DNA of 18,382 nucleotides from contig CAKQUI010000034.1 in NCBI GenBank assembly GCA_934277495.1, positions 1 to 18,382 of the forward strand, given 5' to 3'. The stretch comes from an uncultured Clostridia bacterium (GTDB lineage Bacteria; Bacillota; Clostridia; Peptostreptococcales; Anaerovoracaceae). The position numbers and the translations under genes were made by a program. Shown in pieces: positions 1 through 18,382 of this stretch (within the stretch, counting starts at the first letter, position 1; the number at the start of each line of letters is the position of its first letter). The notes below the pieces were generated by a model, which had not been told where the DNA came from, did not search any database, and saw only the letters and a list, made by a program, of their open reading frames with translations.

Positions 1-737
1 CCGTAAGGACTTTCCTCGAAGCTTATATTCTTCAGTGTAGTATTGAAAGTGGTGTGCCTGCAGTGGTCGGACCAGTATGTGTCTATTACCTTCAGTTCTG
101 TCAGCGTCGGGTCGCGCTGCTCGTCGTCACGGTAGTACTGCTGCACGAATTTTATATCCTCAGGACTCATGGCGAATCCCATGTCTTTTCTGTATTTTTC
201 AAGTTCATCCGGCGTGTATCCTGCAAAGCCTGCGATAACGGCAACGTCTTCGGGAACAGTCGTTTCCATTTCCAGGTTTTCCGGTTTCTCAGCTGACGCC
301 AGCTGGGAATCCACAGGGTTGACGCAGTATGACTTCACTGTCTCCGCCTGCTGCTGGGTGAGACTCCCTTCGAGAACTATCACTCTGGCGAATCTTACAG
401 TGGCCTCTGCCGCCGAGTTCATCAGCTTGATACACTGTGCCGCCGAGTCTGCTCTCTGGTCGTACTGTCCAGGCAGGAATTCAACTGCGAAAAAAATTGC
501 AGAACCCGGCATATCAGGCATCGTTTCTTCATAAACGGTGTCTATCGCTGGCTCTGCAAATACTGTAAGTTTTGCTGCTTCGTATGTGTCGTCATCTATT
601 CCGTCGATATCATAGCGGTTGAGGATCCTGATACCCTGAAGACCATCCAGGTGCAGGTTTTCCTTAACATCAGCAAAAAGCTGAGCTGCTTCAACGTCAA
701 AACCTTTTTTCTTTTCAACGTAAATTCTTCTTACCAT
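1..737 (-). CDS. purL: Phosphoribosylformylglycinamidine synthase, N-terminal part (cut by window edge)
   Basis: This is the first ~245 codons of FGAM synthase, the cytoplasmic enzyme of purine synthesis that converts FGAR, glutamine and ATP to FGAM. I translated the minus strand from the ATG at 737. It opens MVRRIYVEKKKGFDVEA, as in the long single-chain PurL of Clostridia and streptococci. Near residues 220-232 it contains TYWSDHCRHTTF, a hallmark segment of the PurL synthetase domain. The start is supported by AGAAAGGA about 7 bases upstream. No stop is met before position 1, so the rest of the synthetase domains and the glutaminase domain lie outside the window. The gene is transcribed away from the rest of the window, behind its own promoter. 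The family assignment is firm; regulation is inferred separately. Confidence 0.95.
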   Translation of the reverse strand, partial: MVRRIYVEKKKGFDVEAAQLFADVKENLHLDGLQGIRILNRYDIDGIDDDTYEAAKLTVFAEPAIDTVYEETMPDMPGSAIFFAVEFLPGQYDQRADSAAQCIKLMNSAAEATVRFARVIVLEGSLTQQQAETVKSYCVNPVDSQLASAEKPENLEMETTVPEDVAVIAGFAGYTPDELEKYRKDMGFAMSPEDIKFVQQYYRDDEQRDPTLTELKVIDTYWSDHCRHTTFNTTLKNISFEESPY

Positions 738-971
738 GGTTTTTCCTTTCTTACATGAAAATCGGTCATTACTGACATATCTGACTTGTATCAGAACACT
801 GGCTCTGCAGATCTCCGCTGCCATGCTCAGGACGACTGCGCTGCTGCTGCCTGCTCTCTGCATGGTCCTGTGTTGTATGCCGGCTGCCGGAACTGTGTTC
901 TGTAATGTCGCTTTGCTGTCCCCGGGATATATATCCGGCGAGGGCAGTATCGTTCTGTATATTATGGTTTA

Positions 972-1363: not shown

Positions 1364-1836
1364 GATGGGACGTTTCAAGCTTCCAGGCAGCTGTTTTCGA
1401 TACTTTCCAGATCCGGACAGCCGGGTCATTGCCTGCCATGGCGGTCACGCTTTTCGAAATGGGACGTTTTTGAACAAAACTCCGCTGATTTCGATACTTT
1501 TCGAGTCTTGACAACCGAGCCATAAGCTGCCGGCTCCTGGATTCACTGGCGGATGGGTCGTTTTCGATGTTTCTGCTCGCTATTTCGTCCCTTTTCTCAT
1601 TACCACACACCGCCAAGGCTGCCCTTATTCCAGGCAATCACTTCAAATGGGACGTTTTTGACTTTCAGGCGGCAGTTTTCGATACTTCCCTGATCCGGGC
1701 AGCTGTGATATCAGCTGTCGAAGCAATCATGACCTTCAGAACGGGTCGTTTTTGAACAAAACTTCGCTGATTTCGATACTTTCCAAGACTCTCCCGGCCA
1801 GCTGCATCCTTTCCAACACCGGCTTTGTTATCCATG
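1364..1836. repeat. 94-bp-phased degenerate repeat array A (five copies)
   Basis: There are five copies of a bipartite motif. The left block is ATGGG(A/T)CGTTTT or similar; the right block is TTTCG followed by ATAC or TCCC and CTTTYC-like bases. The GGG of each copy starts at 1367, 1461, 1555, 1649 and 1743, a step of exactly 94 each time. Inside every copy the second TCG begins 30 bases after the first G of the GGG. Between right block and next left block are about 50 mostly variable bases. Copies 2 and 5 are nearly identical (TGAACAAAACTYCGCTGA in the middle); copies 1 and 4 resemble each other (CAGGC[AG]GC in the middle, ATCCGG[AG]CAGC after). Copy 3 is of the TCGTCCC type. No cas-like gene is near, and 94 is not a multiple of three, so this is neither an obvious CRISPR nor a protein repeat. 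Confidence 0.85.
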
Positions 1837-2143: not shown

Positions 2144-3988
2144 ATGAAGAAAAAGAACAGGATACTCCTGGCTATGTGCATGGCCTTCTGCATGATGCTG
2201 TGCCTGCTGCCCGTACATGCGGCAGCTGAAGATGCCAGACCGGTCGTGAAGATCGATGTGAGCGGAGAAATCACAAAGACCGATGACTACGAGATCACAA
2301 GCTCGAACATTAAACTTTTGCAACCGGACAAGATCTATGAGCTGACAGGTACGACGACAAAAACCATCAACTACTGGGGCAGCAACGACCTCAACGCCAT
2401 CAGAACTTTCTATCTGCGTCTGAACAACGTGACGACCGGCAATATCACCGGCACCAATTCAGATGGAGCGAAAGTTGTAGTGGATGTACCGGCAGGCACA
2501 GTCAACAATATCGGATCGATGTACTCGGTAGATCTGAACATCACCGGCAGCGGCACCATTAACGCCACTTCACTGGGAGTGACACAGTCGACCAGAGTAC
2601 CTAACAAACTTTACATCAAAGATACGACTATCGTGACACACGTTGCCAGAAACAGCGACGGCTGGGAAGGTGAATGCGTGCTGGCAGGTTCTGCCAACGT
2701 GACTTACATCGGCAACGGCAAATATGCACCGCTGAAGCTGGGTCAGAAAATCGGCAACACTCATTCCCTGACTATCCAGGACAATGCCAAGCTTTACTGC
2801 CTGCAGGATGACAGCAAGCCTGTACCGGATTCTTCAGTCAGCGGCATGGAGATATTCGAAAATGCCACACTTACACTTAAAGACAACGGATATCTGGAAG
2901 CCCATGGCATGGACAGCACAGGTGAATATGCAGGATACGGTCTTGTGACTTACAGCGATATCAAGGTCCAGGATAACGCAACCATCAAAGCGATCGGTTA
3001 TGACGTAGGACTTTGCGCAGAAGGTAACCTGACAGTCACTGGCGGAAGCATCACTGCTGAAAGCAGCAGCAGCAACGGAATATATGCTTCAGGCACTATA
3101 GACATCAGCAATGCCGACATCGATGCAAAAGGCTACTATCCGGCTATATTCGGCGGCAAAAGTGTTTCTATATCAGACAGTACAGTTAAAGCTGAAGCCA
3201 CCGGCAACTGTGCGATATTCTCACGTGGCTCTGTAACACTCAAAGACAGTCTTGTAAAGGCAACAGCTCCGGATGATGATCGTGGCATCAATGCAAACAG
3301 CGGCGTCAAGGTCTCAGGCTGCTGGATACAGACTTCCGGCACAGAAACGCTGGCAGATGATCCGGACACTATCGCCGACAGCGTGCTTTTCAACAAGAAC
3401 AAGGGAAAGACAATCGGCAATGCAGCTCTTCTGGCTGACGAAACTATTGAAAAAGACATGACGCTGGACATCGGTGAAGGCACATCTCTCACAGTCCCTG
3501 AAGGCAAGACACTGACAAACAACGGCACTATAAATCTTAAAGGTACGCTGAACCGTGACGGAACGATCATATGCAACAGCCATATCGGTGGCACTGCTAC
3601 ATGCACAGAAAAGGCGAAATGCGACATCTGTCTCGAACCTTACGGCGAACTGGCTCCGGACAACCATTCCGATCTGAAACATGTAGACGCGAAGGCAGCG
3701 ACTAAAACATCCGAAGGCAATATCGAATACTGGTACTGCAGCGGCTGCGGCAAGTATTTCAGTGATGCAAACGCTGAAAACGAGATCACTGAAGCTGATA
3801 CGATCACCGCTAAACTGAAGGACGATCAGAAAAACGATAATAATAATGATCCTGCAGGTGAAACAAAATCCACAAAGACAGGTGATGATACAAACCTTGC
3901 AATGTGGCTCGCACTGCTGGCCCTCAGTGGAAGTTCTGCTGCAGGTATCACCATCGTGAGCAGAAAAAAGAGACACTCCGGCAGATAA
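2144..3988 (+). CDS. Secreted surface protein with beta-helix-like body, Cys-rich domain and KTGD anchor
   Basis: This 614-residue protein is probably displayed on the cell surface; its ligand is unknown. Residues 1-27 form a signal peptide (basic start, hydrophobic core, HAAA before the likely cut). Residues ~30-470 are rich in short strand-like stretches with repeated N, G, T and turns such as LTVTGGSITAESS, SGTIDISNADIDA and SVSISDSTVKAEA, as in parallel beta-helix proteins. Residues ~477-545 contain CNSHIGGTATC, CDIC and YWYCSGCGKYFSDA, a Cys-rich module common in clostridial surface proteins. After an N/D-rich linker come KTGDD (578-582), a hydrophobic helix and RKKRH, the layout of a sortase signal but without LPXTG. 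GGAGGAAG sits about 8 bases before the start. It is monocistronic with its own terminator. Confidence 0.8.
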   Translation: MKKKNRILLAMCMAFCMMLCLLPVHAAAEDARPVVKIDVSGEITKTDDYEITSSNIKLLQPDKIYELTGTTTKTINYWGSNDLNAIRTFYLRLNNVTTGNITGTNSDGAKVVVDVPAGTVNNIGSMYSVDLNITGSGTINATSLGVTQSTRVPNKLYIKDTTIVTHVARNSDGWEGECVLAGSANVTYIGNGKYAPLKLGQKIGNTHSLTIQDNAKLYCLQDDSKPVPDSSVSGMEIFENATLTLKDNGYLEAHGMDSTGEYAGYGLVTYSDIKVQDNATIKAIGYDVGLCAEGNLTVTGGSITAESSSSNGIYASGTIDISNADIDAKGYYPAIFGGKSVSISDSTVKAEATGNCAIFSRGSVTLKDSLVKATAPDDDRGINANSGVKVSGCWIQTSGTETLADDPDTIADSVLFNKNKGKTIGNAALLADETIEKDMTLDIGEGTSLTVPEGKTLTNNGTINLKGTLNRDGTIICNSHIGGTATCTEKAKCDICLEPYGELAPDNHSDLKHVDAKAATKTSEGNIEYWYCSGCGKYFSDANAENEITEADTITAKLKDDQKNDNNNDPAGETKSTKTGDDTNLAMWLALLALSGSSAAGITIVSRKKRHSGR

Positions 3989-4002: not shown

Positions 4003-4049
4003 AAAACGTATCGGAATAATGCTTTACAGCGTATTTCGATACGTTTTTT
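4003..4049 (+). terminator. Terminator of the surface protein gene
   Basis: AAAACGTATCGGAATA (4003-4018) pairs over 16 bp, one of them G-U, with TATTTCGATACGTTTT (4032-4047), followed by further T residues. It starts 14 bases after the stop codon. It happens to contain TTTCGATAC, which also occurs in the 94-bp repeats, but its position does not fit their phase. Confidence 0.8.
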
Positions 4050-4113
4050 ATTGCCGCAGCCAGGGTCGTTTCATTACTTCAACACGAACCGATGGCTGCT
4101 GGCTTCACTATCT

Positions 4114-4350
4114 GATGGGTCGTTTTTGAGGTTTCTGCTCGTCATTTCGTCCCTTTTAGCTTTCCCGACGGCTACCAGGACCGACTCGTTTCCGAGCGCT
4201 CGCTTCAGATGGGTCGTTTTTGAACAAAACTTCGCTGATTTCGATACTTTTCAAGTCACGATGGCTGAACCACAGACTGCCAGCGGATGGCTGCGGTGAC
4301 GGATGGGACGTTTTTGGCATTCTGACAGCTGGTTTCGTCCCTTTACTCAT
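4114..4350. repeat. 94-bp-phased degenerate repeat array B (three copies)
   Basis: There are three copies of the same bipartite motif as in array A. GGG starts at 4117, 4211 and 4305, again 94 bases apart. Copy 1 is close to copy 3 of array A (GTTTCTGCTCG in the middle, then TTTCGTCCCTTTT). Copy 2 is almost identical to copies 2 and 5 of array A. Copy 3 has perfectly complementary GGGACG and CGTCCC blocks. The array fills the space between two convergent genes. There is no coding frame that spans it convincingly. Confidence 0.85.
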
Positions 4351-6746: not shown

Positions 6747-6885
6747 GTGAACGTTGCCTTTTTTCCCGGAGAGCGCAGCGATCCGCATGGAAAATGCGAC
6801 AGCAGGGAGCGTAAGCGTTGGTGGCTTGTTGCCACTGTTTCCACTTTTTCCACATTCCGGAATCGCTTACTCACGCTACGCAAAA
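6747..6885. repeat. Dispersed mosaic repeat, copy 1
   Basis: The block starting GAACGTTGCCTTTTTTCCCG at ~6750 recurs at ~15470, and in altered form at ~12190, ~16610 (reverse strand) and ~18199. The block GAGCGTAAGCGTTGGTGGCT near 6818 recurs near 15769. The two blocks are adjacent here but about 250 bases apart in the copy at 15.5 kb, so the family is a mosaic of reusable pieces. It lies just past the operon terminator. Confidence 0.65.
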
Positions 6886-8265: not shown

Positions 8266-11200
8266 TTACCTGTCGCCGAAAATATTTTTTGCCACTGCGC
8301 TGTAGCCATTCAGGAAAGACTCGTACCGGTCATGGTTCCTGACGGTGATACTGCCGGACGTCTGATCCCTGTCAAGCTCCACGCCCTCTGAGATCACCGG
8401 CACCGGATCTTCGTATCTCCATGCCCACCGGGTATCTTCCTTTACGGTATATTTCCCTGCAGGCAGCTCTCTTACTGTTTCGCTGTCATTACCGGTTATC
8501 GTCATCGACGTGTAAAACTTCCCGTTTCTGTAGATATCCATCACATAGGGCTCGCCGTCAGCACCGCCGGATTTGGTCACTGTCAGCCGGCAGGTCTTCA
8601 CATGCAGGAGGAACTGCTCCTTTTCTTTGTCGAAATCACACTCTCCGCTGCAGTTTTCATGATGGAAAGTGACATGCTCTGTTATGTCATCGCCTTCGAT
8701 GCTCACTGTCACTTTCACAGGGATGTCTTCTTTCGTCGAGATCACGCCGTCCCTGTAATACTTGTCGCTGTCAGTATCCGGATCCCAGGAAAGCGTCAGC
8801 TCCGGCTTTTTCCCTGTCATTACCACGCCACTGTCGGTATCTGCCCGATCGCCGTGCTTCCAGACCACGCCGGCTTCATTGCTGCTGTAGTCTGCCGGTG
8901 ATTTTTCCCCATAGTACACCGTACTGTCCCTGAACGTCAGCTCCGGCTTGAAGACGCTGATCTTTCCAGCAGCTTCATCGGAAGTTTCTCCTGCTCCGGA
9001 CTTTGCTTTCACCGTTCCTGTAACGGTATATGAACTGTCGCTGGTGAGATCTTCAAGACCGCCGTACTTTTCAGAGAAAATATCTCTGCCATCTGCATCC
9101 TCTGCGGATACAGATATGTCAACAAAGGCGTTCTGCCACGGCTCCAGTCCGTAGTTTTCTTTGCTGAGATCAAGAGATATCTTTCCAGCACTGGCTGTGA
9201 TGTTTTTTCTGATATCCGCTGCACTGATGCTGCCTTTCAGATAAATGTCCATATCGCCGGCTTTCACCGATATTTCGCTGACCGGCACATCAGTCTCTGG
9301 TCTTTCGAAATTCTCAACGACAGTCTCATCACCGTCTTTTTCAGTATATATCCCGGATGCTGCGCCGTTGGTGGGGACTCCGTTTCCGCCCAGAAAACCG
9401 TCACGGACGCTGACATCGAACTCGATGATCAGCTTCCTGCCTCTTGGAGTTTCCCTGCCGTCAGTCTTATCTACGCCGACATAGTTCTCGGAAAAATCAA
9501 AGCCCGTGACTTTCACTGTTTTATCCTGTATCTCTGCACTGATACCGGAGGCTGCAGTTTCGTCTTTCCATTTTGCAGTCTTTCCATCTGTTTCATAACC
9601 ATCGAACTGCACAGTGCTGATGCTTATGTCATCTGTCGTCATGACCTCCGGCAGCTGGAAATAGTCCGAAACGATGTCCTTCACCACTGTGTCGCTGCCG
9701 AGCTTCACACTGGCGCCTCCTGTTTCGATCTGCTTTGAGATCTGCTGGAAAATGTCGCTGAGAGCTGCTGTGCTGCTGGCGGAAAGATAGTAACTCGGCG
9801 TCTGAGGCGTGCCGTTGTTGCTGGAGAGGTTCTGCATGAACCAGTTGCAGGCTGCAGGAAGTGATGCCGATTTATCCCCCAGATCACCGCCCGGCTTCGT
9901 CCCGGTGCTGGTGGCGTCCGCTCCTGAAAATATACCTACGGAATATGCCGTTGCTCCTGCCGTCTTTATCTCGCCTGCCTTGCTTATGGCATCGTTAGCG
10001 ACGTTGAGCTGGAAACCGTTATTTGCAGTCGGACTTCCGTCAGTGAACATGATGACCACACGATTCCTTTTCTCGCCTGCAGCTACAGGGTTGCTGTCCA
10101 GTATGTTCTTGGCCATATCCATACCCAGGTCGGCTTTCGTGGCTCCGCTGGCTGCCAGTGCATTCAACGAAGCACTGATATTTCCTGTGCCTGCTGCTGT
10201 GCTCATATCCTGGAAAGCCTTGCTGTACTGGCTGCTGATGGTGTTTCCTGCGTAGTTATATTGAGTACCGCCGATAAACAGTTCTGTATTTTCATAGCTA
10301 TAGGTCTCGCCGCTGGCGAAGCCTGCTATTGCTATCCTGTGCTCCACGTCGTCATCGGTGCCTGCGATACCGTCGGCGCCCTTTGCTTTTTCAGCTACCG
10401 CACTGCTGAAAGAAGTGACAGCTTCCTTCAGTGCTTCAAGTTTGGTAGTGCTGCTGTTTGCCCTTGTGTAAAAAGTATATCCCGGATCGGTGTTCCAGCC
10501 TGTGGATGTGCCGATGGTCTGGCGATCACCGCTGCTGTCAGTGTAGAAATAGGCGTAGCTGTTGCTGCCCCATGAATGTTCTACGCTCACTTCATAATAG
10601 TCACCATTGCTGTCTTTGTAATACATAGGACTCCGACGATCGTTATAACTGCCGTTGTTCTTATTCCTGGTGATCGCGGTGTAATTATACCCGAAAGGAT
10701 CGCCCATACTTCCTGACTGGTCCAGTACCAGCACTATGTCCGTTGGAATGTCTTCCGTCACCGTAGTCGTGGTGGTCGCTCCCGTGACGTAGGACTCAAG
10801 ACGTATCCTGTAAGTCCCGTCGTCATTTTTCACGGCGGTCTTCTCCGTCACTACGCCGTCGCTTGTGACCCGCTCCGGGTCTGTGCTCTCTGCCGATGCC
10901 TTTGCTTTTCTGGCTGACTGAGATCTACCGGTTACCGGTTCAAGGAAAGGCGCCACTTTTGTAAAATCCACGGTCCTGAAATCAGGCAGCGTCATTTCGT
11001 CAGCATCAGAAGATACTGTGTCTTCGCTTTCGCTGCGCTGCGCTGCATACGCTTTCAGGGCTTCGTACTGCTGCTGGCTCAGCTTTCTTATTTCGGTTTC
11101 CTTTTCTTCATTGCTGTCAAGAGACACCAGATAGCGGTACTGCTCCTCCGTAGTCATTTTCGTTATGTCGATGCCGTCAGGTTCCTGCACAGCACTTTCT

Positions 11201-11409
11201 GTCTCCCTGACTGATGAAGGCTCTGTCTGGCGTGTCTCCGCTGCAGTTTCTTCAACGGGAATACTGTCTGACGGCTGCTCCGCTGTGGTCTCTTCGGTGG
11301 TTACCGTATCCTGGGCAGCCGCATCTCCCGATACCAGCGTGAAAGCGGACAGTATCATGGACATGCAAAGAACGAGGGACAGTATCCTGCTTTTTTTCGA
11401 TTTTTTCAT
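8266..11409 (-). CDS. Large secreted von Willebrand A domain adhesin with C-terminal Cna-B-like domain
   Basis: This 1047-residue secreted protein probably mediates adhesion or fibre structure. The signal peptide is residues 1-32 (KKSKK, hydrophobic core, DAAA). A T/E/S-rich linker follows to about 135. The vWA domain (about 222-570) has the full MIDAS metal site: D230-S232-S234 in DQSGSMG, T424 in SGATKAD, and D457 in FTDGSPT. It also carries an insertion with aromatic repeats at 250-320. After it lie beta-sandwich regions, and at the C-terminus a Cna-B-like domain (LTVTKSGG near 945, LPAGKYTVKED). The extreme end is SFLNGYSAVAKNIFGDR, with no sortase motif or transmembrane helix, so attachment must be indirect. 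AGGAGG precedes the start by 8 bases; the gap to tasA-like 3 is 17 bases. Confidence 0.85.
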   Translation of the reverse strand: MKKSKKSRILSLVLCMSMILSAFTLVSGDAAAQDTVTTEETTAEQPSDSIPVEETAAETRQTEPSSVRETESAVQEPDGIDITKMTTEEQYRYLVSLDSNEEKETEIRKLSQQQYEALKAYAAQRSESEDTVSSDADEMTLPDFRTVDFTKVAPFLEPVTGRSQSARKAKASAESTDPERVTSDGVVTEKTAVKNDDGTYRIRLESYVTGATTTTTVTEDIPTDIVLVLDQSGSMGDPFGYNYTAITRNKNNGSYNDRRSPMYYKDSNGDYYEVSVEHSWGSNSYAYFYTDSSGDRQTIGTSTGWNTDPGYTFYTRANSSTTKLEALKEAVTSFSSAVAEKAKGADGIAGTDDDVEHRIAIAGFASGETYSYENTELFIGGTQYNYAGNTISSQYSKAFQDMSTAAGTGNISASLNALAASGATKADLGMDMAKNILDSNPVAAGEKRNRVVIMFTDGSPTANNGFQLNVANDAISKAGEIKTAGATAYSVGIFSGADATSTGTKPGGDLGDKSASLPAACNWFMQNLSSNNGTPQTPSYYLSASSTAALSDIFQQISKQIETGGASVKLGSDTVVKDIVSDYFQLPEVMTTDDISISTVQFDGYETDGKTAKWKDETAASGISAEIQDKTVKVTGFDFSENYVGVDKTDGRETPRGRKLIIEFDVSVRDGFLGGNGVPTNGAASGIYTEKDGDETVVENFERPETDVPVSEISVKAGDMDIYLKGSISAADIRKNITASAGKISLDLSKENYGLEPWQNAFVDISVSAEDADGRDIFSEKYGGLEDLTSDSSYTVTGTVKAKSGAGETSDEAAGKISVFKPELTFRDSTVYYGEKSPADYSSNEAGVVWKHGDRADTDSGVVMTGKKPELTLSWDPDTDSDKYYRDGVISTKEDIPVKVTVSIEGDDITEHVTFHHENCSGECDFDKEKEQFLLHVKTCRLTVTKSGGADGEPYVMDIYRNGKFYTSMTITGNDSETVRELPAGKYTVKEDTRWAWRYEDPVPVISEGVELDRDQTSGSITVRNHDRYESFLNGYSAVAKNIFGDR

Positions 11410-11426
11410 GCTCTCTCCTCCTTCAC

Positions 11427-12005
11427 TTATTTTTCCGCATCAGGCCAGCCCGCTGCAGTGAATACATCGCTGCCGTTGTTTTTCACCTGCACCGCCTGTG
11501 CGCTGACTTTGATGACGGCTTTGCTGTCCTGATACATGTTTCCCATGGCAGGGTCGAAGCTGACGTTCCTGAACAGTGCCTCAGTAGTTTCACCGGCTGC
11601 CAGGGGCTCATTGTAGTAATAGTATCCGTCGTCACCATAGGTCCACCGGCTGCTGTCGTAGTCCAGCGTTACCAGCTGCGGATCGGCTGTGCCGGATGCG
11701 CCCTCGGCCAGATGTATTGACTGCGCCACACTTACTCTTATGTATGCCGCCTCGCCTCCGGTGTTCTCGACCCTGACTATCTTGGAAACTTTCTGTCCCG
11801 GCATCACGTTATAGATGTCCCTGGACTCTTCGAAAGGGATCTCTGCATCATCAACAAGTGCAGTTTCCTGAAGCTCGATCCTGATGTTGCCGGTGGTCAC
11901 CACATTCCTGGCGGTGTCTGCGGTGTTGAAATATGCGATAGTCGTGTATATCATCACCGAAATGCACAACGCCAGGACTGCTCCGGCTGCGATCTTCTTT
12001 TTCAT
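11427..12005 (-). CDS. TasA/camelysin-like protein 3
   Basis: This 192-residue secreted protein is of the SipW-dependent TasA/camelysin type, likely a fibre subunit or accessory. The N-terminus is a short hydrophobic signal running into TIAYFNTADTARNVVTTGNI (22-41), the characteristic SipW signal region. Then come NVMPGQKVSKIVRVENTGGE (66-85) and AAYIRVSVAQS, the N-terminal strands of the fold, and GDDGYYYYNEPLAAGETTEA toward the end. GAGGAG lies 9 bases before the start. It follows the 220-bp inverted-end element, so it is separated from tasA-like 2 by 301 bases, whereas other gaps downstream in the operon are 12-17 bases. Family assignment is good; exact role is unknown. Confidence 0.8.
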   Translation of the reverse strand: MKKKIAAGAVLALCISVMIYTTIAYFNTADTARNVVTTGNIRIELQETALVDDAEIPFEESRDIYNVMPGQKVSKIVRVENTGGEAAYIRVSVAQSIHLAEGASGTADPQLVTLDYDSSRWTYGDDGYYYYNEPLAAGETTEALFRNVSFDPAMGNMYQDSKAVIKVSAQAVQVKNNGSDVFTAAGWPDAEK

Positions 12006-12052
12006 AATCGGTAACTCCTCTCAGTTTTTCAAATGTCGGTATGCCTCTTCAT

Positions 12053-12272
12053 ACAGGGCATATATGGATATCCGTGTGTCTGGTATCGCAGGCGTAAAGT
12101 TCCGGCTGCAGATCATGTAAAGCTGCATCTGTGCTGCCTTTTCTATGCTGTACATGGAATGGAAAGTTCTTTGCCAGCTGAAGCCGGTAAAAACTGCATT
12201 TCTGCCCGGAGACCCGAAGGCGATCCGCAAAAGGCTCTCTTTGCCCTTGCCGGATATCCATATATACCCTGC
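12053..12272. mobile_element. 220-bp element with 22-bp imperfect terminal inverted repeats
   Basis: The segment 12053-12074 is the reverse complement of 12251-12272 at 20 of 22 positions (core CGGATATCCATATAT). The enclosed 176 bases include a degenerate copy of the dispersed repeat (GCCCGGAG...GGCGATCCGC near 12206-12228). It sits inside the operon between two tasA-like genes. Size and inverted ends suggest a miniature non-autonomous element. I could not see a clear target-site duplication. In RNA it would be a large hairpin, so an mRNA structural element is an alternative. Confidence 0.5.
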
Positions 12273-12286
12273 TCCGCAGAGCAGGG
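12267..12286. other. 8-bp GC hairpin overlapping the right inverted end
   Basis: CCCTGCTC and GAGCAGGG close a CGCA tetraloop, 21 bases after the stop codon of tasA-like 2. Neither strand has a U-tract after it, so it is not a standard terminator. CCCTGC at 12267-12272 is also part of the right inverted end, so the small hairpin and the long-range pairing exclude each other. Confidence 0.55.
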
Positions 12287-12307
12287 ATATGTCCACATCA
12301 TGACTTT

Positions 12308-13015
12308 TTATTTGAATGCATTATATGTTCCCGGAATGCCGAAAGAAGTGTTGAGTGCTTCATAGGCATCAGAGAATCCTGCAGCCTGTGTTCCTTCTGC
12401 GATGACTTTGATCTCCCAGTCTTCGCCAAGAGTTTCCTTGATCTTTGTTATGTCATCATTCGTAACTTTCCTGTCGAGGTATACCTGATGCATTGCCTTT
12501 TCAGCAGTAGTCTCACCGGCTTTGAGTGCTTTGCCGTAGGTGACTACATATACGTTGTATTTCACGCCGTCTGTTGTAGTCTCATAGTAGTTCCAGTCTC
12601 CCTGATACGGGTCGCCGGCTGTCTTCGACCAGTCCCACTTGTCTGCGCCTATGGAGTCAGGTTCATAATTGAAGTGGAGCACATTTTTTCCAGCATCGAA
12701 CTCTGTACTGCCATTGTCCAGGATCGACGGTATGGCGATATGTACACGTACATATGCGTCTTCAGACTCCAGTTCGTTCTTCACCATGACTTCCTTAGTG
12801 ACTCCGTTCTGTAAAGTCCCGTCCTGTGCGCTGCCTGTTGCAGGTATCAGCTTTGAGTTCTGCTCGAAATTTTCCTCCAGAGAAATATCCACTTTTCCGG
12901 TAGTGAAAACGTTATTCTTTGCATCTGTGTCTGTAAAATATGCCAGCGATGCGCCGATGATGCATGTCACCAGCAAAGCAGCTGCAATACTGCATGTTAC
13001 TATTTTCTTTTTCAT
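12308..13015 (-). CDS. TasA/camelysin-like protein 2
   Basis: This 235-residue secreted SipW-dependent protein is the largest of the set. Signal residues ~5-25 lead into SLAYFTDTDAKNNVFTTGKV (23-42), the classic TasA/camelysin sequence around the SipW cleavage site. The mature part starts DISLEENFEQNSKLIPATG and continues VTKEVMVKNELESEDAYVRVHIAIPS, the strand pattern shared with the others. An aromatic stretch (WDWSK, DWNYYETTTDGVKYNVYVVTYGKALKAGETT) follows. AAAGGA lies about 8 bases before the ATG; the gap after tasA-like 1 is 29 bases. It is the best candidate for the main fibre subunit, by its closeness to the canonical motif; this is inference. Confidence 0.85.
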   Translation of the reverse strand: MKKKIVTCSIAAALLVTCIIGASLAYFTDTDAKNNVFTTGKVDISLEENFEQNSKLIPATGSAQDGTLQNGVTKEVMVKNELESEDAYVRVHIAIPSILDNGSTEFDAGKNVLHFNYEPDSIGADKWDWSKTAGDPYQGDWNYYETTTDGVKYNVYVVTYGKALKAGETTAEKAMHQVYLDRKVTNDDITKIKETLGEDWEIKVIAEGTQAAGFSDAYEALNTSFGIPGTYNAFK

Positions 13016-13044
13016 ATGTTATCGTCCTTTCGTATATGCGTGCT

Positions 13045-13626
13045 TTAGTTCCATGCCGGTGCTGCATTCCATGCTTCCGCAGCTGTCTCGAATCCGTCAG
13101 CCTGGACTGCATAGGCTTCTACTGTTATTGTCTTTCCTGCATAATCTGCAACAGCTGCGTCACTCTTTACCTTGAAAGTGTCGAACACTTTGATGTCTTC
13201 TTCTGCATTTACAGTTGTTTTATAGGCGTACACATTTGTCGCTCCGGCTACAGCTGTCCAGCCCTTTGCTGCCATCTGTGCAGCAACGGTATCATCATCT
13301 TCTATACCAGCGATCTGATCCACTACCTTGACGAACAGCCAGCTTTCTTCACTTCCTGTAGTCACATGTACTGTTGGATCCTTTGTGTAGTTATGACCAG
13401 GTATGAGCTTGTAGTCGTTGGCTTTTACTCTGGCTGCGCCTTCTACAGGAACTCCGGTCTCGTCTACCTTCGCCTCGTCCAGTGTGATATTCACATTACC
13501 TGCCGTGAATGTATTCGTCACTGTGTCTGTCTTCGACGTCAGATACGCCATCGTTCCCAGTACGCTCCCCACTACCAGTACCACTGCGGAAAGTACCGTT
13601 AAAAAAACTTTCTTCTTGCTTTTCAT
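13045..13626 (-). CDS. TasA/camelysin-like protein 1
   Basis: This 193-residue secreted SipW-dependent protein has a basic start (KSKKK), a hydrophobic core (8-24), and TMAYLTSKTDTVTNTFTAGN (25-44), the SipW-type cleavage region. The mature strands are VNITLDEAKVDETG, then NDYKLIPGHNYTKDPTVHVTTGSEESWLFVKVVDQ. The family's 'PG...K.P.V.N.G....YVRV' core appears here as LIPGHNYTKDPTVHV. It ends DGFETAAEAWNAAPAWN. AGGAGG lies 8 bases before the start. It directly follows the sipW peptidase gene (103-base gap), the arrangement expected when a peptidase and its client are expressed together. Confidence 0.85.
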   Translation of the reverse strand: MKSKKKVFLTVLSAVVLVVGSVLGTMAYLTSKTDTVTNTFTAGNVNITLDEAKVDETGVPVEGAARVKANDYKLIPGHNYTKDPTVHVTTGSEESWLFVKVVDQIAGIEDDDTVAAQMAAKGWTAVAGATNVYAYKTTVNAEEDIKVFDTFKVKSDAAVADYAGKTITVEAYAVQADGFETAAEAWNAAPAWN

Positions 13627-13729
13627 GTTTATCTCCTCCTATGAAAAAACTTGATATATCTGGGCGCCTTATTGCGTTACCCACTTTTTTATCTGCTCCT
13701 GTTGTTTCCAGGACAGACAGATCTGTCGG

Positions 13730-14374
13730 TCACCGGTCTGCCGGTTTCTTCGCCGTAACTTTCTGCACATGAGCTGAACGTTCCTGAGATGGCAAATCCT
13801 CCTCAGCAAAACCATGTCCGCTATGCTCCCCGGCAGTACATTTCCGGCTTTCGCTCAGGCTGCCACGGCTGCCTTTGCTGCTTTCAAAGAGATCTGGCAG
13901 GAACGCCAGCAGTATTATCAGCGCCGCTGCTGCCAGCGCAAGGTATCTGCCCGGCGGTTCCTTTACATATGCTGCAAAATAGCCAAAATACGGTATCGTG
14001 AATACCGGCTTTCCTATGAGATTTTTGAAATGCACAGGAGATGCGTCCGGATTTTCGTTGGCATCGCCCTTGGTATAGAAATACTGATTTTTTTCGTCGA
14101 TCTTTATAACTCTGTGTGTTGCGACTGTAAGATTTTCGTCGAGAATGAATGTTATCGGATCCCCTGTTTTTATATCCTGCGGGTCTGTCTTTTTCACATA
14201 TATCAGCGATCCCGTATGATACGCAGGTTCCATGGAACCTGACAGGACGCTGTATGTCTGAAAACCGACCGCCTTTGCTCCCACCAGCAGGATGGCCATA
14301 CCCACAGCAATGATCACAAGAAATGTTGTGACGGCAGAATAGATCTTCCTGCCTGATGTTTTGCTTTTCCCCAT
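13730..14374 (-). CDS. sipW: SipW-type (ER-type) signal peptidase I
   Basis: This membrane serine protease cleaves the signal peptides of TasA-like proteins. The 214 residues comprise an N-terminal membrane helix (~13-33), the catalytic serine S47 in SVLSGSMEP, and histidine H87 in ATHRVI. The histidine stands in place of the lysine of ordinary bacterial signal peptidases, the mark of the ER/SipW type. D104 and D110 lie in TKGDANENPD, and a second hydrophobic helix spans ~143-161. After it is a hydrophilic tail of ~50 residues (SSKGSRGSLSESRKC... to KPADR), longer than I expect for the family. The start has weak AGGTG before it. It is the first gene of the operon; the TasA-like genes downstream are its likely substrates. 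Confidence 0.9.
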   Translation of the reverse strand: MGKSKTSGRKIYSAVTTFLVIIAVGMAILLVGAKAVGFQTYSVLSGSMEPAYHTGSLIYVKKTDPQDIKTGDPITFILDENLTVATHRVIKIDEKNQYFYTKGDANENPDASPVHFKNLIGKPVFTIPYFGYFAAYVKEPPGRYLALAAAALIILLAFLPDLFESSKGSRGSLSESRKCTAGEHSGHGFAEEDLPSQERSAHVQKVTAKKPADR

Positions 14375-16164: not shown

Positions 16165-16341
16165 CGTGACTTCACGACTCTGCTTCTCCATCGGACGGAT
16201 GGGTCGTTTTCGATATTTTTACTCCCACTTTCGTCCCTTTCCCGGCTCCGGCAGCCTTCGTGACTTCACAGCTCTGCTTCTTCACTGGACGGATGGGTCG
16301 TTTTTGCTGTTTTTTATCTCTGTTTCGTCCCTTTTGCAATG
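16165..16341. repeat. 94-bp-phased degenerate repeat array C (two copies plus a partial unit)
   Basis: There are two copies of the bipartite motif with GGG at 16201 and 16295, again 94 bases apart, both of the TTTCGTCCCTTT type. Here the spacer is also repeated: CGTGACTTCAC...CTCTGCTTCT...GGACGGAT at 16165-16200 recurs at 16259-16294, exactly 94 bases later. This indicates tandem duplication of a 94-bp unit. It is flanked by mosaic repeats and gene remnants. Confidence 0.8.
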
Positions 16342-16537: not shown

Positions 16538-16709
16538 CAACGCTCGCTCATGCTCGCTCCTACTCACTGCGTTCGTTGCTGTCCGTTTTTCCTTGCGGTT
16601 CACCTTGCGGTTCTCCGGGAAAAAAGGCAACGCTCGCTCATGCTCGCTCCTACTCACTGCGTTCGTTGCTGTCCGTTTTTCCTTACGGTTCTCCTTGCGG
16701 CTGTTCCAT
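16538..16709. repeat. Tandem repeat, 91-bp unit, about 1.9 copies
   Basis: The unit starting CAACGCTCGCTCATGCTCGC at 16538 begins again at 16629. It contains ACTCACTGCGTTCGTTGCTG and GTCCGTTTTTCCTT; within it CCTTGCGGTTC is itself repeated. Its reverse complement is homologous to the 89-bp units at the right edge (shared CGGACAGCAACGAACGCAGT), so the two arrays belong to one family in opposite orientation. Confidence 0.8.
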
Positions 16710-18180: not shown

Positions 18181-18181
18181 G

Positions 18182-18382
18182 GAGTGAGCGACAGCGAACG
18201 TTGCCTTTCTGTCCGGCGAACCGCAGGTGAGTCGCTCGACAGAACGGACAGCAACGAACGCAGTGAGTTGGAGTGAGCGACAGCGAACGTTGCCTTTCTG
18301 TCCGACGAACCGCAGGTGAGTCGCTCGACAGAACGGACAGCAACGAACGCAGTGAGTTGGAGTGAGCGACAGCGAACGTTGC
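18182..18382. repeat. Tandem repeat, 89-bp unit, more than two copies, running off the right edge
   Basis: GAGTGAGCGACAGCGAACGT begins at 18182, 18271 and 18360, a step of 89 bases. The two complete units differ by about one base in the inner part (CCGGCGAA against CCGACGAA). Each unit holds TTCTGTC and GACAGAA, and CTGTCCG and CGGACAG, as inverted arms, so alternative hairpins are possible. The near identity indicates recent duplication. Confidence 0.9.

Follow-up and report, generated by a model that had tools for sequence, protein, structure and literature searches.

Known Phased Operators and Extragenic Palindromes

Extragenic repeats are usually taken for mobile debris. According to the available text of PMC2817692, REP and BIME elements are short imperfect palindromes that are intergenic, clustered and lineage-specific, with a possible role in chromosome organisation; REP families with a CGTC tag are described in the accessible part of PMC3733652. 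In the operators of Lrp/AsnC regulators, as far as the available part of PMC2995911 goes, the sites lie on one face of the helix with their centres two or three turns apart, and they are bound by cooperative dimers or octamers that wrap DNA. No description of arrays like those presented below was found in the titles and abstract openings among the literature matches listed.

These arrays are, in the reading that we prefer and to which we give about an even chance, intergenic platforms of phased sites for a putative cooperative, sequence-specific DNA-binding protein.

Two-Block Sites in the Window

The window, that is, the whole analysed stretch of 18,382 nucleotides from an uncultured Clostridia bacterium, carries ten copies of a two-block repeat in three arrays. 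The initial annotation had described five degenerate copies at an exact 94-bp step, and this was confirmed, with the GGG of the copies starting at 1367, 1461, 1555, 1649 and 1743 (array A). Two further arrays keep the same step, with GGG at 4117, 4211 and 4305 (array B) and at 16201 and 16295 (array C). Tabulated over the ten copies (5 + 3 + 2), all seven within-array steps are 94. In every array, the self-identity over lags of 40-149 was highest at lag 94 (0.437, 0.364 and 0.690), and the pattern GGGWCGTTTT with at most one mismatch matched 15 times in the window versus 1.6 ± 1.33 times in 200 shuffles (maximum 6).

The ten copies align without gaps, and the 17 invariant columns out of 54 all fall inside two blocks about 31 bp apart. 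The left block reads ATGGGWCGTT(T), counted from position -2 of the first G, and the right block, TTTCGNNNCTTT, spans +28 to +39, with TTTCG and CTT invariant across the ten copies. The second TCG that had been noted 30 bases after the GGG is indeed present, and is better described as a part of this right block. Mean pairwise identity between the copies amounts to 93% in the left block, 83% in the right block and 46% in the interior. The middles of the copies form three classes, all sites lying on the forward strand. The alpha class comprises A2 (1459-1499), A5 (1741-1781, with the left block ACGGGTCGTT) and B2 (4209-4249). A3 (1553-1593, with GGGTCG...CGTCCC ends), B1 (4115-4155), C1 (16199-16239) and C2 (16293-16333) constitute the beta class, and A1 (1365-1405, with the left block ATGGGACGTT and the right block TTCGATACTT), A4 (1647-1687) and B3 (4303-4343, with GGGACG...CGTCCC ends) the gamma class. 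The ends are inverted (GGGWCG...CGTCCC) in five of the ten copies and the remaining five end in CGATAC. As dyads the window arms are poor, with 4-7 of 10 arm positions complementary around a 21-bp interior, and B3 is the best among the ten (7 of 10). A lone left half-site, GGGTCGTTTC (4063-4072, forward strand), is located 54 bp before B1 and outside the 94-bp register.

Most of the spacers had been said to vary. The seven internal spacers show a mean identity of 36% (range 19-62%), but the spacers are not wholly unrelated: identity reaches 78% between those upstream of C1 and C2 and 50-57% in seven further spacer pairs, indicating that duplication took part. Array A additionally contains a 282-bp higher-order repeat of 76% identity. 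With a single step size in the window and spacers that are in part alike, duplication explains some of its regularity. The strict form of this explanation, the neutral decay of one tandem 94-bp duplication with arrays subsequently copied elsewhere, draws on the likeness of the C1 and C2 upstream spacers and on the long repeat of array A, yet it would have to account for seven steps free of length change between such diverged spacers, for the 17 invariant block columns and, in the relatives presented below, for conserved arms combined with several spacer lengths one turn apart. We consider it quite unlikely.

Genes and Other Features of the Window

Array A is located upstream of purL, the 5' part of which (phosphoribosylformylglycinamidine synthase, 3-863, reverse strand) matches TIGR01857 with an E value of 2e-85, the fragment scoring under the whole-protein cut-off of the model. 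Between arrays A and B lies the gene of a 614-aa protein with no Pfam or NCBIfam match (2144-3988, forward strand), the C-terminus of which presumably resembles that of a wall-anchored surface protein. This gene is followed by a terminator-like hairpin, within which TTTCGATACGTT (4034-4045) resembles the right block of the arrays. Positions 8266-14374 hold a likely surface-fibre cluster: besides three genes of the camelysin-like kind, one of them slightly under the Pfam cut-off, there are a signal peptidase resembling SipW and a VWA protein of 1047 aa. Tandem repeats of 89-90 bp at 18181-18382 and 16538-16700 (99% and 97% identical) belong to a separate, recent family, to which pieces at 6749, 15469 and 15697 are related.

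Neither a cas family nor a transposase was found by Pfam among the 18 window ORFs scanned. Short mechanically called ORFs (87-164 aa) overlap six of 23 arrays or dyads, including all three window arrays; we take them for chance frames. A sigma-70 promoter as the repeated unit was rejected: in the region scanned, A4 alone out of eight units scored, and six matches stood against 4.4 expected.

Searches for the Window Repeat

Judged by the DUF1002 protein among 349 genomes of the family, the nearest relatives of the window are two uncultured species, G002 (80% identity) and G003 (75%), with the next genome at 53%. The identities of the PurL part to that of the window are 78% and 73%, respectively, and up to 75% in others.

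The window repeat was absent from the genome contigs searched with a pattern that fits five of the ten window copies, and from viral contigs searched with two patterns fitting six and nine of them. Array A gave no blastn match to plasmids and phages, and a sequence model of the repeat gave none in 23 of 73 purL loci. The same model returned matches with E ≤ 1 in 11 of 16 relatives' genomes (locus L009 lies outside this search); we read them as chance, the best reaching 17.4 bits (E 0.0101) where the window copies score 39.1-47.8 bits. The search of the 349 family genomes with the repeat model was empty, which, without a positive genome, shows nothing. A pattern allowing three mismatches matched once in eight relatives, below its control count.

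Dyad Arrays in Related Genomes

A scan for phased similarity in the DNA of G002 revealed a similar architecture in letters other than those of the window. Exact dyads TTTCGACG...CGTCGAAA occur 63 times in G002, 26 times in G003 and not at all in 13 other genomes, while the same dyad read backwards, as a control, was found once in G002, never in G003 and 0-4 times elsewhere. A longer form of the pattern matches two of the 349 family genomes, and no such dyad was detected in viral contigs. The locus set of this main family consists of 21 loci among the matches listed, with 81 dyads called by arms with at most two mismatches, a threshold at which strongly decayed dyads go unseen. Their lengths are 41 bp (68 dyads), 40 bp (11) and 39 bp (2), and three of the 81 have one arm mismatch. 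Arrays are present at 18 of these 21 listed loci and single dyads at three; in 16 of the 18 array loci there is one array of exactly four dyads, arranged as a pair, a wider gap and a pair.

The 59 spacers in the 21 listed loci measure 31 (1), 32 (36), 33 (4), 43 (1), 53 (10), 54 (1) and 64 bp (6), so that all 59 steps below 200 bp obey these classes, with no intermediate lengths. The spacers fit 32 + about 10.5n bp, and the resulting steps of 72-74, 84, 94-95 and 105 bp correspond to about 7, 8, 9 and 10 turns of 10.45 bp. Because some of the arrays share a common descent, the 59 spacers are not independent observations. For the four step classes themselves (72.5, 84, 94 and 105), equal regularity was reached in 78 of 20,000 random sets. 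The best single period for eight family-by-class steps is 10.71 (strength 0.977), which was weighed against the preferred reading; a period of 10.45 gives 0.962, a value reached by none of 5000 random sets. The spacers of different main-family arrays have little sequence in common.

Other arms were found in the same geometry. In the second family of G002, AGTCTCCAAA...TTTGGAGACT, all 31 dyads measure 40 bp, the gaps below 150 bp are 32 bp in 17 of 17 cases, and single dyads stand at seven of 12 loci. In another genome, G007, GGGAGAAA...TTTCTCCC dyads of 57 bp (12), 58 bp (1), 78 bp (4) and 79 bp (1) are present, with one further doubtful dyad of 68 bp. The lengths of 57 and 78 bp are two turns apart, gaps below 150 bp are 26-27 bp in nine of nine cases, giving steps of 83-84 and 104-105 bp, and four of nine loci lack a close pair. 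Steps in both further families are thus 72, 83-84 or 104-105 bp. One G002 locus carries GCCGATGA...TCATCGGC dyads at a step of 74 bp. Steps scattered around 94 bp or frequent single copies had been named initially as findings that would speak against selection on spacing. Scattered steps were not seen in these relatives (the 21 loci among the matches listed and the further arm families); lone copies are rare among the main-family loci (3 of the 21 listed), but common in the other two families (7 of 12 and 4 of 9 loci), which counts against such selection.

Arrays with AGTCTCCAAA arms are located directly 3' of genes whose ends resemble Rpn/PDDEXK_2 nucleases at L129:1702-1936 and 8505-8739, L164:4225-4611 and L002:3697-3860. 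The Rpn-type PDDEXK_2 nuclease was nevertheless rejected as a partner of the arrays, since G003 and G007 have none and it is a neighbour only at L129, L164 and L002. In another Clostridia genome, dyads GGGGACA...TGTCCCC (L033:18178-18360) have steps of 68 and 107 bp and are not in helical register.

Pairing within the Dyads

Complementarity in the relatives' dyads ends at 10 bp, and the arms enclose 19-21 bp. Arm position 10 covaries (58 pairs versus 37.2 ± 3.5 expected, reached in 0 of 2000 shuffles), position 9 covaries weakly (P 0.004), and no covariation is present beyond position 10. The covariation at position 10 was counted against phased protein sites, as base pairing would give it too. 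Arm mismatches are balanced overall, with 53 G.T and 51 A.C; lopsided exceptions are L164 (nine G.T to one A.C) and L165 (two G.T to seven A.C). The pairing pattern is easier to reconcile with paired half-sites or a cruciform than with RNA.

A promoter-like sequence, TTGACC-17-TATAAT, occupies the central gap of the array at L170:2385-2448, between convergent genes, and its G003 counterpart (L178:203-266) has TAAAAT. That sequence, kept between the two loci, the two arrays with lopsided mismatches, and the number of central gaps with a promoter score of at least 9 (7 of 17 versus 3.0 expected from mononucleotide shuffles) would suit arrays of small structured RNAs or transcript hairpins. A phased RNA had been among the initial suggestions and is not supported: no Rfam family reached its gathering cut-off in the window, the window units have no common fold, the relatives' pairing stops at 10 bp and shows no overall strand bias, and it is not obvious what spacing by whole turns would mean in a single-stranded RNA. 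We find the RNA explanation hardly credible.

Conservation and Rearrangement of the Arrays

Five array pairs of G002 and G003 provided 18 matched dyads, in which 288 of 288 letters of the outer 8-bp arms are identical. With two extra dyad pairs left out of the 18 (L171 dyad 4 versus L173 dyad 3, 15/16, and L169 versus L176, 16/16), the figure is 319 of 320. The 18 likewise exclude the chimeric dyad near purL in G002 and, for want of a partner, L171 dyad 3, which has one arm mismatch. Identity in the matched dyads is 67 of 72 letters at arm positions 9-10 and 302 of 375 (81%) in the interiors, the better of two orientations being taken; equal-length spacers of matched arrays agree in 334 of 394 letters (85%). 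Across three whole arrays, 0-2 gap columns were counted versus 14-81 substitutions; gaps in the flanks are large for L130/L175 and small for both remaining pairs.

In 344,900 bases of G002, TTTCGACG lies inside dyads in 22 of 22 cases, with none outside versus 5.3-5.9 expected, and TTTCGAC occurs outside dyads 13 times versus 30-34 expected. However, 8.3% of 60 comparable 8-mers, taken as a control, are likewise absent. TTCGACG and TCGACG show no depletion, and AGTCTCCAA no avoidance, with 7 of its 13 occurrences lying outside exact dyads. Given unchanged arms and moderate avoidance figures, arm conservation is a firm result and the avoidance of half-sites outside dyads a hint.

Dyads have been lost in two of the six compared array pairs, L177/L168 and L171/L173, which counts against the preferred reading. 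Three dyads with steps of 72 and 73 bp are left in the latter. Upstream of purL (L177 versus L168), the four-dyad array of G003 corresponds to one chimeric dyad in G002 that joins the left portion of dyad 1 to the right portion of dyad 4, as if the two had recombined. The single G002 dyad at L169:2332 resembles dyad 4 of the G003 array at L176:2457, with which it shares 17 of 21 interior letters when read in one orientation; it may be what is left of a further collapsed array. The 21-bp interior of the first dyad is inverted between L166:2718 and L174:2734, where 15 of 21 letters match inverted and five forward.

The initial annotation had also considered a recombination substrate. Arrays serving site-specific or hairpin-mediated recombination, with inversion of interiors and collapse of arrays, would find slight support in the chimeric purL dyad, in the one inverted interior (L166/L174), and in the arrays that flank a long gene on both sides, in L163 and in the window. 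Inverted interiors amount to only one of 18, though, ordinary homologous recombination accounts for the collapse, and no tyrosine or serine recombinase was found among 20 neighbour genes scanned (a PDDEXK_2 nuclease 'transposase' adjoins L164). Such a role seems very improbable.

Spread and Surroundings of the Arrays

The neighbours of the arrays are mixed (arginase, hydrogenase, repeat-rich proteins), with no consistent gene context, and consequently no regulated pathway is visible. An array or dyad lies upstream of purL in four cases, namely array A of the window, the four-dyad array of G003, the collapsed dyad of G002 and an array of G007, a position that comes from loci picked for containing purL. 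At L163:926-6897, two genes with surface-protein repeats lie in succession and an array comes after each of them, in shortened form after the second gene, possibly a duplicated unit of gene plus array.

A rival reading takes the arrays for mobile extragenic palindromes, similar to REP/BIME or TIR elements, that an IS200-like tyrosine transposase has spread and that owe their spacing to a founder array. Such elements would likewise be intergenic, repeated and lineage-specific imperfect palindromes, and single dyads are common in two arm families. The window's GGGWCG resembles the GGGGWSAS ends of TIR elements, as given in the accessible part of PMC3733652. There are 61 dyad pairs with at least 15 equal interior letters, 10 between loci of one genome, 16 at the same locus and 35 between genomes, and L164 and L179 hold homologous arrays although their neighbour genes differ (the pair is not proven orthologous); these inter-locus matches and L164/L179 indicate that arrays have spread. 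Several observations argue against mobile palindromes all the same. The arms are near-unchanged across species where the spacers differ by 15%, and the spacers come in quantised lengths, in contrast to Stenotrophomonas BIMEs, where the length of the segments between REPs differs substantially (PMC2817692, available text). The 68- and 107-bp steps of the GGGGACA cluster in L033 count on the same side. A RAYT transposase as the spreader was rejected because the Y1_Tnp genes, one in G002 and two in G003, have no TTTCGACG or CGTCGAAA within the surrounding 2.1-2.7 kb, and G007 has no such gene. Mobile palindromes are therefore an unlikely explanation overall.

Phased Sites as Putative Protein Platforms

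Under the preferred reading of phased protein sites, each copy would be a site of two ~10-bp blocks with centres ~31 bp, or three turns, apart, and successive copies would be a whole number of helical turns apart, nine in the case of 94 bp. Whole-turn placement would bring the blocks to one side of the DNA, and thus bound subunits could touch each other or wrap it: the subunits of an oligomer may occupy half-sites of one face, separated by three turns inside a site and by 7-10 turns from site to site, contacting each other or wrapping the DNA. Protein binding, its cooperativity and a function of the arrays are what we infer from the spacing observed in the window and the relatives and from the conserved arms of the latter.

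Selection on spacing that keeps all sites on one helix face, as suggested initially, is the best-supported reading, and its support comes from the relatives, where spacers of 32 + about 10.5n bp and near-unchanged arms persist amid drifting surroundings; in the window by itself, identical steps could arise through duplication of a 94-bp unit. The window matches the relatives in geometry (block centres ~31 bp apart, a step of 94 bp), and its arrays would be of the same kind by geometry and location, not by sequence homology. The window dyads are poor and the arm letters differ, hence this kinship is one of analogy. If the window arrays were TIR-like mobile ends, the link to the relatives' arrays would fall.

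As a tentative extension, possible rather than probable, the arrays may belong to a dedicated nucleoprotein system of an uncultured Clostridia lineage. In such a system, a chromosome-organising or gene-regulating oligomer would wrap DNA on arrays of one-face half-sites, the letters (TTTCGACG, AGTCTCCAAA, GGGAGAAA, ATGGGWCG) being replaced between species and the helical geometry kept. Arm letters kept between species and spacers that jump by single turns point, in this genome comparison, to an active protein machine. If this is true, the arrays predict a new DNA-binding protein, for which they could be used as bait, and offer a system readable from sequence for following helical phasing, cooperative binding and the turnover of recognition letters across species.

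Comparison with Known Systems

Phased protein sites account for the arrays better than REP/BIME-RAYT elements, CRISPR or RNA do. Like REP and BIME elements, the arrays consist of short imperfect intergenic palindromes that are clustered and lineage-specific. They differ in that the relatives' dyads have 10-bp arms around ~21 bp, where a REP has a stem, a 4-5-bp loop and a GTAG/CGTC tag; a 20-40-bp stem-loop with a short loop and an unpaired tag of this kind was found neither in the window nor in the relatives. Their spacers are quantised, and no RAYT gene was seen with these ends, nor any rayt gene flanked by repeats in the 2.1-2.7 kb surrounding the three Y1_Tnp genes of G002 and G003. The TIR elements of IS200-like transposases share G-rich ends with the window (GGGGWSAS and GGGWCG, respectively), whereas the window block reads ATGGGWCGTT. 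As in CRISPR, spacers of uniform length stand between the repeats, in two arm families mostly of 32 bp. Unlike CRISPR repeats, those of the arrays are not near-identical: interiors vary (window mean 46%) and conservation is confined to the arms. Moreover, each of many places has mostly four dyads, and further spacer lengths occur, one turn apart.

As would suit protein sites, the relatives show a conserved motif (288/288 or 319/320 outer arm letters). The closest likeness in manner of working, with no claim of membership, may be to the phased operators of Lrp/AsnC regulators. In the window and the relatives alike, sites lie on one face at whole-turn steps (72-74, 83-84, 94-95 and 104-105 bp), with block centres ~31 bp apart in the window and the main family. 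In contrast to Lrp/AsnC operators, these arrays are located at several intergenic places next to unrelated genes, and their steps extend over 7-10 turns.
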